A stretch of 64,000 nt of DNA from Micromonospora polyrhachis (lineage in GTDB: Bacteria; Actinomycetota; Actinomycetes; Mycobacteriales; Micromonosporaceae): NCBI RefSeq assembly GCF_014203835.1, contig NZ_JACHJW010000001.1:4352501-4416500 (forward strand). Direction: 5' to 3'. Under the pieces are notes generated by a model. That model was given only the letters and a program-made list of their open reading frames with translations, had not been told where the DNA came from and did not search any database. Positions 4,476 to 49,920 of this stretch are shown here, one piece after another (the first letter of the stretch is position 1; every line of letters starts with the position of its first letter). A program made the translations under genes and the position numbers.

Positions 4476-5849
4476 TTGAAGTTCTCGGCGGCACGCAAGG
4501 GTATACGAAGAGCGCCACGCTTCTTTTCGGCTGGGCACGGGCGGCTGCGCCGCCCGACGCGCTCATTGGTGGTGGGGCTGGTGGCACTCGGCGTCGTGGT
4601 GACGGGGGTGGGTGTCGCGGTGGCTGATGACGAACACGGCTCGGTCACGGTGACCCGGGATGGCGCGGTCGTCGAGGGTCGAAATATCAAGGGGTACGTG
4701 CATATCAAGGCCGACAATGTCACCGTCCGGAATTCCACGATCAGGTACGACGGGAATCACGCAATCCGGATCTTCAGTGGCTCCGTCGGCACCGTCATCG
4801 AGGCGACCAGGGTCTACTGCGAGGCGGAGAAGACCAACGGAATCGTCTTCGGTGACTACACCGCCCGGAAGGTGACCGTCCACGGGTGTCGGAACGGCTT
4901 CATGTACTCGGACGAGTCCCCGGCCACGATCACCGACTCGACCTGGAACGGACGCGCGGTGGTGGCGGGAGCGGAGCCCGAGCCGCTTGCGTCCTCGGCC
5001 GCGACGTCCGCGCCGGTCAAGTCGGCTGCGCCAGCCGCCAGCCGGCCAGCGCGACCGGCCACGTCCGGAGATGCTCGGACCAAGCAGTCGGGTAGCGGGA
5101 CGCTGGCGATCCCCGAGGGCTTCCCGGGGCCGGACAACACCGGCGTGCCGGAGGGCACCACGCTGCGGCCATCCGGGTCGATCACCCTATCGAGGGACGG
5201 CCAGGTCGTCAGCGGCCTCAACATCAGCGGATGCGTCGTGGTGACCGCGAAGAACGTGGTCATCCGGAAGTCGCGGATCACCTGTGGTGGCCAGTACTCG
5301 ATCAAGACAACCGGGGCGAAGAACCTGCTGGTCGAGGATGTGGAGATCAACGGAATGGGGCGCAATTCGGCGGCGGTGTGCTGTAGCGACTACACCCTCC
5401 GCCGGGTAGACATAAGCAACGTCATCGACGGTCCCCGGCTGGCCGACAACACCGTCGTGGAAGACTCCTGGATCCATCACCTGACCCGGGTATCCGGTTC
5501 GCACAATGACACACTGCAAACCACCGGAGCGGCGAACATCGTCGTACGGGGCAATTCTCTGGATGCCTACAACCCGGTGACCAAGGACCCGCTCAACGCC
5601 TGTCTGATGATCGGTTCCACCACGGGTCCGCTGGTCTCGAATCTGGTGTTCGAGCAGAACTACTGCAACGGCGGAAACTACTCGATCGGGATCCGGGCAG
5701 ATCTTCGTGCGGCGAGCATAAAGATCCGGAGCAACGTGTACGGCCGGGACTGCCGGTTCGGAATCGTGGCGCGGCCGAAGCATCCTGGCATCAACTGGGA
5801 GACGGCGACCAACCTCTGGGCGGACAGTCGTAAGCCTGTCGTCAAATAA
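4476..5849 (+). CDS. Secreted right-handed beta-helix protein (pectate-lyase-like fold)
   Basis: This 457-residue protein probably starts at TTG 4476, because GAAAGGATC lies 5 nt upstream and the product then begins MKFSAARKG, a basic N-region. A hydrophobic segment RSLVVGLVALGVVVTGVGVA (about residues 32-51) is followed by VADD, a signal peptide or anchor. Two beta-helix blocks follow, each opening with a similar strand (SVTVTRDGAVVEGRNIKGYV and SITLSRDGQVVSGLNISGCV), joined by an Ala/Ser/Pro-rich linker at about 165-215. Motifs such as NVTVRNSTIRYDG and NIVVRGNSLDAYN are parallel-beta-helix rungs. Enzymatic function is unknown: pectate lyase, other polysaccharide lyase and non-catalytic wall protein are all possible. 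The two-block layout suggests an ancestral duplication. Confidence 0.8.
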   Translation: MKFSAARKGIRRAPRFFSAGHGRLRRPTRSLVVGLVALGVVVTGVGVAVADDEHGSVTVTRDGAVVEGRNIKGYVHIKADNVTVRNSTIRYDGNHAIRIFSGSVGTVIEATRVYCEAEKTNGIVFGDYTARKVTVHGCRNGFMYSDESPATITDSTWNGRAVVAGAEPEPLASSAATSAPVKSAAPAASRPARPATSGDARTKQSGSGTLAIPEGFPGPDNTGVPEGTTLRPSGSITLSRDGQVVSGLNISGCVVVTAKNVVIRKSRITCGGQYSIKTTGAKNLLVEDVEINGMGRNSAAVCCSDYTLRRVDISNVIDGPRLADNTVVEDSWIHHLTRVSGSHNDTLQTTGAANIVVRGNSLDAYNPVTKDPLNACLMIGSTTGPLVSNLVFEQNYCNGGNYSIGIRADLRAASIKIRSNVYGRDCRFGIVARPKHPGINWETATNLWADSRKPVVK

Positions 5850-5882
5850 CCCCCTCGGCGGCCCGGCCAGGCGGCCGCCCCA

Positions 5883-5916
5883 CCGTGGACCCGTGACCCT
5901 CGACACGGGTCCACGG
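5883..5916. terminator. Bidirectional terminator hairpin
   Basis: Perfect 13-bp arms CCGTGGACCCGTG (5883-5895) and CACGGGTCCACGG (5904-5916) enclose an 8-nt loop. It lies between the convergent genes ending at 5849 and 5990. There is no T-tract, as is common in actinobacteria. Confidence 0.75.
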
Positions 5917-5989
5917 CCGGTTGCGTCACCCCTACCGAAGCGGGTGGTCAGCCGAGGGAAACGGGATGGTCAGCCGAAGCGAGACCGGA

Positions 5990-6985
5990 TCAGAGCCGGT
6001 CGTCCAGGGTGGCGAGACCGTCCCGATTGGCCCCGGTGGCGAGTCGCCCCTTGGCGGCCGGATCGCCGTACAGGGTCCAGCGCAGGAAGTCCGCGGTCGT
6101 CCCGGTGACCACCCCGAAGGCCGGGTTGTTGGACTTCAGCAGAGACTGACCGTGGTCCCCCTGGGGCAGGCTGAGCATCGCCTTCGGCCAGGGCACCCGG
6201 TCGTAGGCGGCCTTGCCCGAGGCGTACGACACCACGTCGTCGAGCTGTCCGTGCACGAAGAGCAGCGGCGCGGTCGGGCCGGCGAACGCCGTACCGACGC
6301 CGAGCGCGCTGCCGGCGAGCACGATGCCGGCGTCCAGCCGTTCGTCCCGGCCGCCGGTGAACAGCCCGATGGTGGTGACCCCACCGGCTGAGTGCCCGGT
6401 GGCGGCGACCCGGTCGGTAGCCAGGCGACCTCGCAGCGGATCTCCCGCCCGGGTGTCCAGCTTCAGCACCTCGGTCAGCACGTAGGAGGCGTCAGCCGGT
6501 TGGTTGACCACGTCGAGTATGTCGAACCGGGCCGCGCCCCGGCTGGTGTGCGGATAGCGGGGTGCGACGACCACCAGTCCGGCCGCCGCCCACTCGGTGA
6601 GCAGCGACTGGTAGTCGGCGGGGCTGGCGGTCAGCCCGTGACTGAAGACGACGACCGGGAACTGACCGCGCGCCACCGGAGCGGAACGTTCCGCCGTACC
6701 GCCGGCCTGGCCAACCGCGGGGTACCAGACCGTGGTCGGCAGTGGCCGGTCGCTGCCCCGGGCGAGCTTCAACTCCCGTACCCCGACTGCGAAGGAGTCG
6801 GACGGCGCGATTCCGGCCGGCGGTGCGAAGGGCGCGGCGGTGGTGGCCGATACGGACGGGGCCGTTGCCGTCGGCGATGGCCCGCCAGCGGCGGGATCGC
6901 GATGGTCGGCAGGGGTCGAACAACCGGCGATGCCCGCCGCGAGAAGGACAGCGGCGAATAGGGGCCCGGTACGACGTCGGCGCAT
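5990..6985 (-). CDS. Alpha/beta-hydrolase lipoprotein (chlorophyllase / PAF-acetylhydrolase-like)
   Basis: This 331-residue protein starts MRRRRTGPLF and has a lipoprotein signal with lipobox AGIAGC, so the mature protein should be lipid-anchored outside the membrane. The alpha/beta-hydrolase core shows VVVFSHGLTASPADY (oxyanion-side HG), the nucleophile elbow ATGHSAGGVTT, and LLFVHGQLDDVV, which supplies the acid. A histidine in PQGDHGQSL probably completes the triad. Proteins of this group hydrolyse short esters, and a dienelactone-hydrolase-like or PAF-AH-like substrate cannot be separated here. The start has CAGAAT exactly 7 nt upstream and no clear ribosome binding site, so the transcript is probably leaderless. 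Confidence 0.85.
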   Translation of the reverse strand: MRRRRTGPLFAAVLLAAGIAGCSTPADHRDPAAGGPSPTATAPSVSATTAAPFAPPAGIAPSDSFAVGVRELKLARGSDRPLPTTVWYPAVGQAGGTAERSAPVARGQFPVVVFSHGLTASPADYQSLLTEWAAAGLVVVAPRYPHTSRGAARFDILDVVNQPADASYVLTEVLKLDTRAGDPLRGRLATDRVAATGHSAGGVTTIGLFTGGRDERLDAGIVLAGSALGVGTAFAGPTAPLLFVHGQLDDVVSYASGKAAYDRVPWPKAMLSLPQGDHGQSLLKSNNPAFGVVTGTTADFLRWTLYGDPAAKGRLATGANRDGLATLDDRL

Positions 6986-23966: not shown

Positions 23967-24545
23967 ATGGGTAACCGTGAAGATCTGCTGGCCGGCGCGA
24001 AGCAATGCCTCCGTGAGAAGGGCTACGACCGGACCAGCGTGCGAGACATCGCCTCCGCCGCCGGGGTGAGCATGGCGGCCATTGGCTACCACTACGGGTC
24101 GCGGGAAGCGCTGCTCAACCAAGCCTTGTTCGACATCCTCGACGAACATGGCGACGCGATGGGGCGGGTGCTCGTGCCCGAGGGGGGTGACCAGGAGGAG
24201 GCGGCACAGCACTTCGAACGCATGTGGAACGGCCTGATCGATCAGTTCCGGGAGCAGCCCAGCCTTTGGCTCGCTTCCGTTGAGTTGTTCATGCAGGCGC
24301 AGCGGCAGCCGGAGCTGCGTGCGCAACTCGCCGAGGGCACCCGGCAGGGCCGGCGGGGTATGGCCGCCATCCTGGAGAGCGTGCCGGAGGGTGACGTGTC
24401 GGAGGAGTCGGCCCGCACCCTCGGCAGGGTTCAGGTCGCGTTGATGAGCGGCATGATGATCCAGTGTCTCAGCGACCCGGACAATCCACCCACCGCCGCC
24501 GAGGTGTTGGCCGGGTTGCGGGCGCTGGCAAAGCTCCTGAACTGA
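23967..24545 (+). CDS. TetR family transcriptional regulator
   Basis: This 192-residue regulator has an N-terminal helix-turn-helix (about 1-48): EDLLAGAKQCLREKGYDRTSVRDIASAAGVSMAAIGYHYGS, with recognition helix AIGYHYGSREAL. The C-terminal ligand domain has the TetR_C form seen in regulators with ELRAQLAEGTRQGRRG. It starts at ATG 23967 on an apparently leaderless transcript. It is divergent from the secreted carboxylesterase gene, so it likely represses that gene and itself until a hydrophobic ligand binds. The ligand is unknown. Confidence 0.9.
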   Translation: MGNREDLLAGAKQCLREKGYDRTSVRDIASAAGVSMAAIGYHYGSREALLNQALFDILDEHGDAMGRVLVPEGGDQEEAAQHFERMWNGLIDQFREQPSLWLASVELFMQAQRQPELRAQLAEGTRQGRRGMAAILESVPEGDVSEESARTLGRVQVALMSGMMIQCLSDPDNPPTAAEVLAGLRALAKLLN

Positions 24546-24568
24546 CAGCCACGCCGCACTGGGCGGTC

Positions 24569-24611
24569 AAGAGGGGTCCCTTCGGTGTGCGCCTGCGGAG
24601 GGGCCCCTCTT
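24569..24611. repeat. Hairpin related to the AGGAAGGG palindromic family
   Basis: Arms AAGAGGGGTCCC (24569-24580) and GGGCCCCTCTT (24601-24611) enclose a 20-nt loop. The arms resemble the GAAGAGGGGCCCTTCC arm of copy 1 but the loop does not match. It lies 24 nt after the TetR stop and probably terminates it. Confidence 0.6.
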
Positions 24612-24637
24612 TGTGGCGGGGCCGGGGTCTGGACAGA

Positions 24638-24663
24638 AACAGTTAACAGTCCTAATAATTAGG
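24638..24663 (+). promoter_or_regulatory. AT-rich candidate promoter/operator of the chitinase gene
   Basis: The stretch containing AACAGTTAAC and CCTAATAATTAGG (palindromic, 24651-24663) is markedly AT-rich in a GC-rich setting. Similar AT-rich palindromes occur before secreted polysaccharidase genes of actinobacteria. The binding protein is unknown. Confidence 0.35.
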
Positions 24664-24712
24664 GCCATCTTGTTGATGGCTGTGGATGTCTGGGTTGGTG
24701 GGAGGGGTTGGG

Positions 24713-26257
24713 GTGTGGCGTCGGTCGAGGTCGTTGGTGGTGGCGGTGGTGGCGGGGTTGGTGGCGGCGTTGGGGGTGGTGTGGGGGCAGTTGCCGGCGT
24801 TCGCGGCGGGTGTGACGGCGTCGTTTGTGAGGGTGTCGGATTGGGGTTCGGGTTGGGAGGGTCGGTACACGATCACGAATGGTGGGTCTACGGCGGTGTC
24901 GTCGTGGTCGTTGGTGTTTGATCTTCCGGCGGGTACGTCGGTGGGTTCGTATTGGGATGCGTTGTTGTCGTCGTCGGGGCAGCGGTTCACGTTTTCGAAT
25001 CGGTCGTGGAATGGGTTGATCGCGCCGGGTGGGTCGGTGTCGTTCGGGTTTCTGGCGTCGGGGTCGGGTTCGCCGGTGGGTTGTTTGTTGAACGGGCAGG
25101 CGTGTGGTGGTGGTACGGGCCCGACGGGATCTCCGACGGCGACGCCGACGGCTTCGGCCTCACCGACGGTGTCCCCGACCACGCCACCGCCCACGACCCC
25201 TCCACCCACCACCCCGCCGCCGGTTGGCGGCCTGCCGAAGCACGCGCTGATCGGTTACCTGCACGCCAGCTTCGCCAACGGGTCGGGCTATCTGCGGATG
25301 GCCGACGTGCCGGCCGAGTGGGACATCATCAACCTCGCCTTCGGCGAGCCGACCTCGGTGACCTCCGGTGACATCCGGTTCCAGCTCTGCCCGGTCAGCG
25401 AGTGTCCGAGCGTGGAGACAGAAGCCGAGTTCATCGCCGCGATCCGGGCCAAACAGCAGCAGGGCAAGAAGGTGCTCATCTCGATCGGCGGGCAGAACGG
25501 CCAGGTCCAACTGACCACCACCGCCGCCCGGGACGCTTTCGTCCGGTCGGTCGGCGCCATCATCGACCGCTACGGACTGGACGGCCTCGACATCGACTTC
25601 GAGGGCCACTCGCTGTCGCTGAACACCGGCGACACCGACTTCAAGAACCCCACCACTCCGGTGATCGTCAACCTGATCTCCGCAGTCCGCACGCTCAAGC
25701 AGCGGTACGGCGCGGACTTCGTACTCACCATGGCACCGGAGACCTTCTTCGTGCAGCTCGGCTACCAGTACTACGGCTCCGGCCCGTGGGGCGGACAGGA
25801 CCCGCGCGCCGGGTCGTACCTGCCGGTCATCCATGCGCTGCGCAACGACATCACCGTGCTGCACGTGCAGGACTACAACTCCGGCCCGATCATGGGGCTG
25901 GACAACCAGTACCACACGATGGGCGGGGCCGACTTCCACATCGCGATGACCGACATGCTGCTCGCCGGCTTCCCGGTCGCCGGTAACACCGCCAACGTGT
26001 TCCCGCCGCTGCGCCCCGACCAGGTCGCCTTCGGCACGCCTGCGTCGACCAGCGCGGGCAACGGGTACGTCGCACCCCCGGGTGTGCAGGCGGCGGTCAA
26101 CTGCCTGGTCCGGGGTGCGAGTTGCGGCGGCTACGCGCCGCGCAGCGGCACCAGCCCCGGCTTCCGAGGACTGATGACCTGGTCGATCAACTGGGACCGG
26201 TACTACGGCTGGGAGTTCAAGAACAACCACGAACCGTTCCTCAACGCGCTGCCGTGA
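24713..26257 (+). CDS. Secreted GH18 chitinase with N-terminal CBM2
   Basis: This 514-residue protein has a signal peptide (RSRSLVVAVVAGLVAALG to AFA), a CBM2-type carbohydrate-binding domain (about 32-132, with SDWGSGWEGRYTITN and the Cys pair ending CLLNGQACGG), a Thr/Pro linker (TPPPTTPPPTTPPP), then a GH18 TIM barrel from about 175. The barrel carries KKVLISIGG and the catalytic D-X-D-X-E in GLDIDFEGHS. It should hydrolyse chitin with substrate-assisted retention. GTG 24713 is favoured over ATG 24686 because GGGAGGGG lies 5 nt before it. Codons change sharply at the linker: the CBM part is rich in NNG/NNT and TTG/GTG, while the catalytic part prefers NNC. This suggests the CBM module was acquired from elsewhere. 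Confidence 0.92.
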   Translation: MWRRSRSLVVAVVAGLVAALGVVWGQLPAFAAGVTASFVRVSDWGSGWEGRYTITNGGSTAVSSWSLVFDLPAGTSVGSYWDALLSSSGQRFTFSNRSWNGLIAPGGSVSFGFLASGSGSPVGCLLNGQACGGGTGPTGSPTATPTASASPTVSPTTPPPTTPPPTTPPPVGGLPKHALIGYLHASFANGSGYLRMADVPAEWDIINLAFGEPTSVTSGDIRFQLCPVSECPSVETEAEFIAAIRAKQQQGKKVLISIGGQNGQVQLTTTAARDAFVRSVGAIIDRYGLDGLDIDFEGHSLSLNTGDTDFKNPTTPVIVNLISAVRTLKQRYGADFVLTMAPETFFVQLGYQYYGSGPWGGQDPRAGSYLPVIHALRNDITVLHVQDYNSGPIMGLDNQYHTMGGADFHIAMTDMLLAGFPVAGNTANVFPPLRPDQVAFGTPASTSAGNGYVAPPGVQAAVNCLVRGASCGGYAPRSGTSPGFRGLMTWSINWDRYYGWEFKNNHEPFLNALP

Positions 26258-47292: not shown

Positions 47293-47969
47293 ACACGGAC
47301 TTCAAGAAGGTGCACAAGGATCTGTACGGCGCGACGACCGAGCCGGCCGTGGTGGACGTACCCCCGTTGCCGTTCCTGGCGGTCAGCGGTGCTGGCGATC
47401 CGGACGGGCCGGTCTGCCAGGCGGCGGTCGAGGCGCTGTACGGCGTCTCCTACTCGGTCCGGTTTGCCCTGAAGAATGCGGGCATCGTGGAATATCCGGT
47501 GATGCCGTTGCAGGGGCTGTGGTGGGTCGACGGCGGGTGGGACATTACCGAGCGGGATCGGGATGACTGGCGGTGGACCATGATGATCATGCAGCCGCCG
47601 CAGGTCACGGCGGAGCTGGTGGCGCAGGGCATCGCCGCGACGGCGAAGAAGAAGCCGTCGGCAGCCGTGGATCAGCTTGAGCTGCGCGAGTACGCCGAGG
47701 GGTCGGCCGCGCAGATCCTGCACATCGGACCGTACGCGGACGAGCGGCCCACGATCGAACGGCTGCTCGCCTTCGTGGCGGAACAGGGTCGGCAGGTCTC
47801 CGGCCTGCACCACGAGATCTACCTGTCGAATCCCGCCCGCACCGCAGCCGAAAAACTGAAGACGATCATCCGCTATCCGGTGATGGCGGTGACCTCGTCG
47901 GTGTCGGGATCGGCATCGGCGTCACCGGTGGCATCGTCTGTGTCTGCGTCTACGTCTGTGTCGGCCTGA
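47286..47969 (+). CDS. GyrI-like small-molecule-binding protein
   Basis: This 227-residue protein is of the stand-alone GyrI-like/SMU type: MLNTDFKKVHKDLYGA, PPLPFLAVSGAGDPDG, a central WWVDGGW and a second half with LHIGPYADERPTIERLLAFV and HHEIYLSNP. Such proteins bind or sometimes hydrolyse small aromatic or cationic compounds. The C-terminal tail of ~24 residues (SSVSGSASASPVASSVSAST) is low complexity and probably a late extension. The gene overlaps the MerR gene by 7 nt. Its stop is part of the palindromic element into which the insertion sequence jumped. Confidence 0.85.
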   Translation: MLNTDFKKVHKDLYGATTEPAVVDVPPLPFLAVSGAGDPDGPVCQAAVEALYGVSYSVRFALKNAGIVEYPVMPLQGLWWVDGGWDITERDRDDWRWTMMIMQPPQVTAELVAQGIAATAKKKPSAAVDQLELREYAEGSAAQILHIGPYADERPTIERLLAFVAEQGRQVSGLHHEIYLSNPARTAAEKLKTIIRYPVMAVTSSVSGSASASPVASSVSASTSVSA

Positions 47970-47979
47970 GGTTTGGGTG

Positions 47980-48023
47980 CATCTGTTGCTGCTGGGCGGG
48001 CTGTTGCGAAATGAAGTTGGGGG
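47980..48023. repeat. Left part of 44-bp inverted repeat (palindrome arm plus IS terminal repeat)
   Basis: Identical in reverse complement to 49896-49939 over 44 bp. The outer 19 bp (47980-47998) belong to the target palindrome, and the inner ~25 bp (GGCTGTTGCGAAATGAAGTT onwards, 47999-48023) are the IS terminal inverted repeat. Confidence 0.85.
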
Positions 48024-49920
48024 GTGTTAGCGGGTGCTGGTGGTATTCGGGGTTTGATGTTGTTGGGGCCTGTGGGGTGTGGCCGGCGGGTTGGGGTGGT
48101 TCGTGGACTGGCTGCGCTATGCCTTGCCGGGTAGGAGATGGCCGGTGGTGCGGAGGGTGTGTACCAGCCGGTTGATGTTGTAGGTGGCGCAGATGAACTT
48201 CCATTCGGCGGTAGCACGGTCCAGACCGCGGCGGGTGAGGGTGCGGATGCCTGTGTTGTGTTTGATGTGGCCGTGGGGGGTCTCGGCGATGTGTCCGCGT
48301 TGGCGGTAGGTGGCGATGCCTTCGGGGGTGCGTAACCGCTGGGCCATCTGCTGGACCGGATCGGTGTGGTGGGGCTGGTCGGGATCCGGTGGCGGGTCGG
48401 CGGGTTGGGTACGGGCCGATTTCTCCACGTCGTGGCTTTTGCCGGTGGCGATGAGCCGGTCGGGTCCGGCGGCGGTGAGATTCTCCTCGGACAGGTAGCC
48501 GGCGTCCATGACCATTGTGCCGATCCCGTTCGGGTGGCGCGGACAGGATCGGCGGGTCGCACCGGTGGCCGGCGAGGCGGTTGGTGTTGGCGGTGAGTCC
48601 TGGCTGTCTTTTGGTGGGCAGGTGCAGGTCAGTTGCGCTGCTTCGGCCTGGTCGCGATGGGCACCGGTGATGAGGTTGGCGGCGTCTTCGGCGGCGGCCA
48701 TCATCGGCTTTGCCTGTTCAACATCACCGGTGTCCTGGGTCAGTTCGGTGGCGATGATCAGATGGTCGGCCGAGACCACGTTTTGCGGGTTGTAGCCCTG
48801 GATGAACCCGGACTTGGTCGGCATGAGCCGACTGTCCGGGTCGGTGACGTTACGCACCCGCGGCCGTTGATCGGCCACCTGGCGTTCCCGCTCGGCCGCC
48901 CGCGCCAGCGCCTTGTCCAACCACGTACGCGCCCGCACGACCGCGAAGTGTTCATCGACCGGGCGGGGCCGCGCACCGACCAGCCCGCTACCCGTCGCGG
49001 CGATCTTGTCGGCGTTGCGCTGCTCCCACTCGGCGATCGTGGCTTGCCGAGCGGCGATGGCCTGTTCCAGCCGTAGCCTGGCCGAGGCAACCTCCGCGTT
49101 GACCGGCACGTTACCGCGGATACGCTCACCGCGACGTTGACGCTGCAGATACTGATCCGCCTTAGCCCCAGCCTCGGCCTGTCCGGCGGTCCGCTCGGCC
49201 TCCAGCTCGGCCAATGCCCGCCGCAGCCGCGGCCCACGACAGCGCTCATCGGCCAACTCCTCGGGCAGCTGGTCACCGCCGCAGGCGCCGCCGAACAGCG
49301 CATCCTCGGCCGTGTCCGTGGCCCGGTGCTCGGCCACCGCCTCGGCGGCCACCTCGGCCAACTCGGCGCGAATCCGTTCCTCGCTGCGGTTGGCCTTCAT
49401 CGACGCGTTCGCGCCGATCTTCATCCCATCCAGCGTGATCGTCTCCAGCCGCCCCATCCCCGCCTTCGCGCACAGCAGCAGCACCTCGGCGAACAAGTTC
49501 TCCACCAACTGCGGGGCCATGTCAGCGAACCGCCAGATCGTCGTGTGATCCGGCACGTCCTGCGCGCAGATCACCCGGAACCCCACGTCCTCCCAGCACA
49601 GCCGCTCAATCCGCCGTGACGAGCGGATCCCCCGCGCGTAGGCATAGAACAACAATGTCAGCATCATGTCCGGGTCGAAGCCCGCCCGACCCACCCCACC
49701 CGTGCGACACCGGGCATGTATCTGCGTGGTGTCCAACAGCCGCACCGCCTCGATCAGCACCCACACCGGATGATCAGCCCGCAGCCACTGCCGCATATCC
49801 GGCGGCATCAGAAACTGTTGATCACGATCAACGGGTCGGTACCCCTTTGCCATACCACCATTCTATCTAAATATGCACAAAAAGGAGATCAACCGCCCCC
49901 AACTTCATTTCGCAACAGCC
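47999..49920 (-). mobile_element. IS1182-family insertion sequence
   Basis: The element is about 1922 bp with ~25-bp terminal inverted repeats starting GGCTGTTGCGAAATGAAGTT at both ends (47999-48023 and, inverted, 49896-49920). It carries a single transposase gene. Flanking sequences GCTGCTGGGCG and CGCCCAGCAGC are themselves complementary, so the element sits at the centre of a palindrome. Because of that symmetry, a target duplication cannot be recognised and the ends are uncertain by a few bases. The element looks complete. Confidence 0.88.
48117..49853 (-). CDS. IS1182-family transposase
   Basis: This 578-residue DDE transposase has the N-terminal DUF772-like domain (MAKGYRPVDRDQQFLMPPDM, then RCRTGGVGRAGFDPDMMLTL), RVICAQDVPDHTTIWRFAD, the first catalytic Asp near LETITLDGMKIGANAS, a long helical insertion (about 175-330), GYNPQNVVSADHLI, VMDAGYLSEEN and the C-terminal HNTGIRTLTRRGLDRATAEW with the Glu region. 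Length and order match the family with no frameshift, so it is probably active. The codon use has the same high GC as the host. Confidence 0.93.
   Translation of the reverse strand: MAKGYRPVDRDQQFLMPPDMRQWLRADHPVWVLIEAVRLLDTTQIHARCRTGGVGRAGFDPDMMLTLLFYAYARGIRSSRRIERLCWEDVGFRVICAQDVPDHTTIWRFADMAPQLVENLFAEVLLLCAKAGMGRLETITLDGMKIGANASMKANRSEERIRAELAEVAAEAVAEHRATDTAEDALFGGACGGDQLPEELADERCRGPRLRRALAELEAERTAGQAEAGAKADQYLQRQRRGERIRGNVPVNAEVASARLRLEQAIAARQATIAEWEQRNADKIAATGSGLVGARPRPVDEHFAVVRARTWLDKALARAAERERQVADQRPRVRNVTDPDSRLMPTKSGFIQGYNPQNVVSADHLIIATELTQDTGDVEQAKPMMAAAEDAANLITGAHRDQAEAAQLTCTCPPKDSQDSPPTPTASPATGATRRSCPRHPNGIGTMVMDAGYLSEENLTAAGPDRLIATGKSHDVEKSARTQPADPPPDPDQPHHTDPVQQMAQRLRTPEGIATYRQRGHIAETPHGHIKHNTGIRTLTRRGLDRATAEWKFICATYNINRLVHTLRTTGHLLPGKA

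Follow-up and report, generated by a model that had tools for sequence, protein, structure and literature searches.

What could make the 5' part of a single bacterial chitinase gene differ so sharply in codon style from the catalytic part that follows it? The question is raised by a type B chitinase gene of Micromonospora polyrhachis, located on the + strand of the 64,000-nucleotide stretch of DNA analysed here (the window). Its coding sequence (24713..26257) begins with GTG. The list of open reading frames placed the start at an ATG at 24686, but the GTG aligns with the ATG of orthologues and was therefore chosen over the longer frame, which supports the start used in the original prediction. 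A likely ribosome-binding site, GGGAGG (24700..24705), aligns with GGGAGG or TGGAGG in the orthologues. The gene encodes a signal peptide assigned by eye (24713..24808), a CBM2 module (24815..25105; Pfam PF00553, E 2e-24, 86.3 bits against a curated cut-off of 24), a Thr/Pro/Ser-rich linker (25115..25231), and a GH18 catalytic part (25232..26254; PF00704, E 4e-12, 46.8 bits against 29.6). The translation contains DGLDIDFEG, which we take to fit the GH18 catalytic motif DxxDxDxE, and chitinase activity is predicted. An antisense frame of 186 aa (24652-25212, minus strand) had no match in a Pfam profile search and is probably a by-product, kept open by the G/T-rich, C-poor coding strand.

Codon counts gave a fraction of C at third positions (C3) of 0.02 in the signal peptide (0.02-0.03 in the feature assignment), 0.06 in CBM2, 0.23 in the linker, and 0.57 in the GH18 part, so that C-ending codons make up about 5% across signal peptide and CBM2 and 57% in the catalytic part with its host-style codons. 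TTG accounts for 11 of the 13 leucine codons before the linker and for none of the 27 after it. In 150-nt windows starting at 24618-25008, GC skew was 0.34-0.62 and TA skew 0.34-0.78, and both dropped to about 0 or below past 25100. These values confirm the G/T-rich, TTG-heavy 5' region followed by host-style GH18 codons that had been described from the letters of the DNA. The shift is thus real, but its onset is not at 24713 as stated there: the skew is already present from near 24618, about 95 bp earlier, and thus includes the 5' UTR. The density of TGG on the coding strand of the tract, 66 per kb, exceeds that of all 12,877 background windows of 513 nt (maximum 64.3).

The original prediction had suggested a search for the same CBM2 DNA elsewhere in the genome. 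By blastn, the skewed tract (24618..25189), which comprises the promoter, 5' UTR, signal peptide, CBM2, and first half of the linker, recurs 42 kb downstream at G000:C1:4419125-4419695, and a base-by-base comparison revealed three substitutions in 571 bp (99.5% identity). The copy heads a second GH18 chitinase, of type A (L020, ORF 5194-6618); at the protein level, its catalytic part matches that of type B at about 37% identity. Upstream flanks of the two copies are unrelated up to 24617, and divergence resumes inside the linker at about 25189. The module boundary proposed as a recombination boundary therefore holds, since the copies match through CBM2, part in the linker, and continue into diverged catalytic parts. 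A third CBM2-GH18 gene directly follows type A; its CBM2 is 56% identical and unskewed (C3 0.63-0.65). In two Asanoa loci (L098 and L058), a second CBM2 gene follows type A at a distance of about 1.9 kb, and part of the CBM2, around DADMTRSGQRFTFTNKSWNGTL, is apparently common to it and the third chitinase next door, a hint of exchange with this neighbour as well.

The tract also carries a conserved 25-bp motif with palindromic parts, AACAGTTAACAGTCCTAATAATTAG (24638..24662, + strand). With up to three mismatches, it was found in this genome at the two chitinases only, and a reversed-pattern control gave 0 matches. It occurs 137-168 bp upstream of CBM2, with 0-5 substitutions, in 46 of 46 genes when both types are counted across 23 genomes, a count that carries no shuffled control. 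It probably serves as an operator or promoter common to the two types. The motif here equals the one upstream of type B in both G010 and G047, which hints weakly at B as the donor; taken as a whole, the upstream alignment does not settle the direction between A and B.

Among 300 genomes of the family, 272 contained some match to the tract DNA, the best of them outside this genome at 74%, and type B GH18 matches were present in 152 at E<=1e-130. For the comparison of gene pairs, the 30 genomes with the best type B matches, among them this one, were taken along with G020, 31 in all. Type A was detected in 27 of them at E<=1e-100, and four of these were left out for having no CBM2 beside the catalytic part, leaving 23. 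DNA identity between the A and B CBM2s was 0.851-0.997 in the nine genomes with the genes less than 50 kb apart, 0.764-0.828 in the six with the genes 0.8-5 Mb apart, and 0.761-0.851 in the eight with the genes on different contigs. Identity fell with distance (rho -0.64, p 0.011, n=15) and rose with GC3 skew (rho 0.55, p 0.006, n=23), where the 23 genomes were chosen among those nearest this gene and are not independent, and the p-values ignore shared ancestry. The relation with GC3 skew gave rho 0.79 on genus means (p 0.02, n=8) and, centred within genera, a Spearman coefficient of 0.37 (p 0.11) and a Pearson coefficient of 0.72 (n=20). When signal-peptide and CBM2 segments were pooled, identity and C3 were not correlated (rho -0.06, p 0.62, n=69), a correlation that the generally lower C3 of signal peptides may hide.

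In a tree of the catalytic parts, each of the two types forms one clade with 100/100 support and a single label change suffices, whereas the CBM2 tree needs 12 changes between A and B, at least nine of them forced by well-supported branches. The CBM2 modules of the two chitinases have been repeatedly homogenised, in several genera. Two control pairs (L146/L147 and L148/L149), each with a different kind of enzyme as the second match, have CBM2s that are 75-76% alike and show no skew.

Among the 23 genomes, extreme G/T skew is confined to the near-identical copies of this genome and of G010. In G010, the CBM2s are 99% identical, with a C3 of 0.12-0.15 and 55-58 TGG per kb, and the signal peptides are 77% identical with a C3 of 0.33-0.37; the border of the skew thus tracks the border of identity, while here the signal peptide lies within the repeat and is skewed. 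The skew of G010 apparently arose independently of that in this genome. In G047 (0.919) and G067 (0.851), the genes are linked and the CBM2s homogenised without skew, which indicates that skew is not required for exchange and that exchange can come first. In G020 the genes are 5 Mb apart, yet the type B copy has a C3 of 0.38. A scan of species genomes, in which 80 of 104 loci were kept, placed the CBM2 relatives mostly at a C3 of 0.5-0.7 among the matches listed, with the lowest, 0.29, in Phytohabitans suffuscus (L054). In Phytohabitans species, about 20 kb separates the two chitinases, and their CBM2s are mildly C3-depleted.

The CBM2 branches are long in the two skewed genomes, 0.30 here and 0.19 in G010, compared with catalytic branches of 0.14/0.08 and 0.025/0.043, respectively. 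At codon positions 1 and 2, the G/T fraction is 0.655 in this genome, 0.636 in G010, and 0.49-0.61 elsewhere. Taken together, the long branches and the raised G/T at these positions suggest that the pressure alters amino acids too, an effect that selection of codons for translation would not explain.

The rarity of such tracts was assessed in a genome sample made up of the window and 79 systematically chosen 20-kb stretches (1.64 Mb, 23% of the genome), scanned in six frames with 100-codon windows for C3<=10 and A3<=8. Beside the chitinase tract, a single other C3-depleted tract was judged truly coding (L249, 13354-14464); it belongs to a giant ORF with no Pfam match in the part scanned and has a 98% identical copy 9 kb off. 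A near-identical copy is thus present for both C3-depleted coding tracts of the sample. The giant-ORF pair was located at L298 3325-4403 and 12569-13647 (G000:C1 about 3023325-3033647), on the minus strand and in a frame of more than 3000 aa, with further 87% repeats nearby. The remaining low-C3 window groups (L223, two in L248, and L255) were rejected by eye as non-coding or as antisense to normal or repetitive genes. Skew alone by a looser criterion, GC and TA skew above 0.25 in 390 nt, is common, with 23 tracts in the 1.64 Mb, among them the chitinase tract and an insertion sequence, and for most of these no repeat was found inside the sample. The second skewed place of the window (47731-48811) overlaps a transposase-like gene (ORF 48117-49853, minus strand) that looks presumably IS1182-like; about 840 bp of it have four further genomic copies at 99-100%, and strong skew marks its C-terminal end.

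Several explanations may be considered for these observations. That CBM2 sequences, or 5' ends in this genome, ordinarily have such a composition is scarcely credible. Amino-acid composition has some effect, as this CBM2 has a high content of Gly, Ser, Trp, and Val; however, of the 13 CBM2s in the genome, only those of the type A and B chitinases are skewed, the other 11 having a C3 of 0.43-0.66 and a GC skew of -0.20 to 0.11, and even the lowest value among the listed relatives lies far above that found here. Horizontal gain, in which a foreign cassette of signal peptide and CBM2 was placed before two resident chitinases, would agree with the break in composition at the module border and with the low identity of the closest DNA match among the 300 family genomes searched. 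It is nevertheless very unlikely, because CBM2 already stands at that place in type B orthologues, the likeness of A and B within genomes recurs across several genera, and the motif carried by the cassette is the one conserved at these very genes; in addition, a one-strand C3 of 0.05 together with a G3 of 0.73 would fit no normal genome style. The foreign origin first proposed for the binding module is thus contradicted by the same tract within the genome itself and by orthologues that carry CBM2-GH18 in host-style codons. Its recent fusion fares no better, as orthologues in other genera already combine the two domains, mostly in host-style codons. The check that had been set for this reading, namely whether orthologues of the two-domain gene show the same codon shift, came out divided: most lack it, which indicates that the shift is recent, and G010 has it (C3 0.13-0.15 in that comparison). 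What is recent is the recoding and the copying within the genome, not the fusion; the CBM2-GH18 fusion is old. A break in composition at a domain border need not signal horizontal transfer.

A one-off duplication, in which the cassette passed from one gene to the other in a single event and the skew predates that copying and has nothing to do with it, arising for instance from selection on mRNA structure or on codons at the 5' end, is somewhat less improbable but still unlikely. One event would suffice for this genome, and low C3 is a general tendency of signal peptides here. It would leave unexplained the homogenised CBM2s of several genera with their forced label changes, the extension of the skew into the untranslated region and into codon positions 1 and 2, the coincidence of the skew and identity borders in G010, and the fact that the other C3-depleted coding tract is likewise a repeat.

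The very probable explanation is that two old chitinases have had their CBM2 overwritten by repeated homologous exchange, most simply by gene conversion, and that the tract was recoded toward G/T in two lineages. Repeated exchange between two nearby genes, with gene conversion as its simplest form, is well supported; in a sample with one genome per species, we infer that the exchange was non-reciprocal. Type B here and type A 42 kb downstream are two old genes whose leaders and CBM2s are homologous; exchange between them would repeatedly replace the CBM2 of one by that of the other, and closer genes are homogenised more tightly. In this genome and in G010, the coding strand of the common tract has also become extremely rich in G and T, at codon positions 1 and 2 as well as 3 and, in this genome, in the 5' UTR. 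For the cell, the outcome is two chitinases that differ in their catalytic parts but have promoter, signal peptide, and binding module in common, a route by which two enzymes can retain one common binding module and promoter.

The combination of repeat and skew resembles GRINS. The founding paper on these elements, by Nivina et al. in PNAS in 2021, reportedly mentions other gene families in its abstract, and the mechanism is said there to be not known. The descriptions in two later papers concern polyketide synthases (PMC10394414, PMC9899208) and define the elements by a repeat of >=500 bp with >80% mean identity in 150-nt windows (step 30, five-window mean; PMC9899208) and by mean absolute GC and TA skews >0.15 (PMC9899208) or >0.25 (PMC10394414). 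In the chitinase gene, the five-window mean delimits a repeat at 24528-25277; the 17 windows with identity >0.8 span 24588-25217 and have mean absolute skews of 0.43 (GC) and 0.51 (TA), against 0.39 and 0.44 over the whole of 24528-25277. Gene conversion, a further element of the definition, is indicated by the label changes of the CBM2 tree against the one of the catalytic tree and by the linkage effect. GRINS partners lie within the same assembly-line polyketide synthase; the partner here sits in a second chitinase gene, 42 kb off. Having the repeat and the skew but no common polyketide synthase, the tract works like GRINS and is counted as a variant. The giant-ORF tract pair is a second GRINS-like case.

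RecA filaments are most stable on TGG repeats (PMC3763553). With less certainty than the exchange itself, we infer that skew and exchange may reinforce each other through RecA on TGG-rich single strands. A full self-reinforcing loop, in which ectopic exchange drives the strand-asymmetric recoding or is driven by it, TGG-rich sense strands stabilise RecA filaments and thereby increase exchange between linked paralogues, and exchange-linked repair goes on removing C, so that the chitinases represent a graded GRINS series, is a tentative idea that we consider rather unlikely. If true, the series would lead from G047 and G067 (no skew) through Phytohabitans, G102, and G056 (mild) to G010 and this genome (extreme).

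A search of the literature for gene conversion together with chitinases or carbohydrate-binding modules returned no such case, and the GRINS literature found concerned polyketide synthases or unrelated subjects, the other gene families of the founding paper being outside this search. The pair can also be set beside the concerted evolution that ectopic gene conversion brings about among paralogues in general. As in that process, the paralogous chitinase segments are more alike within than between species; unlike it, only one module is affected, the catalytic domains stay apart, and strand-asymmetric recoding is strong. The genes resemble other CBM2-GH18 chitinases of the Micromonosporaceae in domain order, conserved upstream motif, and orthologues in many genera, and differ from them in that leader and CBM2 are C3-depleted here, and CBM2 alone in G010. 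With GRINS, the tract shares a repeat above 500 bp with identity far above 80-90%, GC and TA skew above 0.25, a recoded homologous domain, apparent gene conversion, and an actinobacterial host. It differs in joining two separate genes for secreted enzymes 42 kb apart instead of lying in one polyketide synthase, in including the promoter, and in having orthologues that grade from no skew to extreme skew. The chitinase pair consists of two simple genes that can be assayed and have 0.5 kb in common; as its orthologues range from no skew to full skew, the order of linkage, homogenisation, and skew becomes testable.
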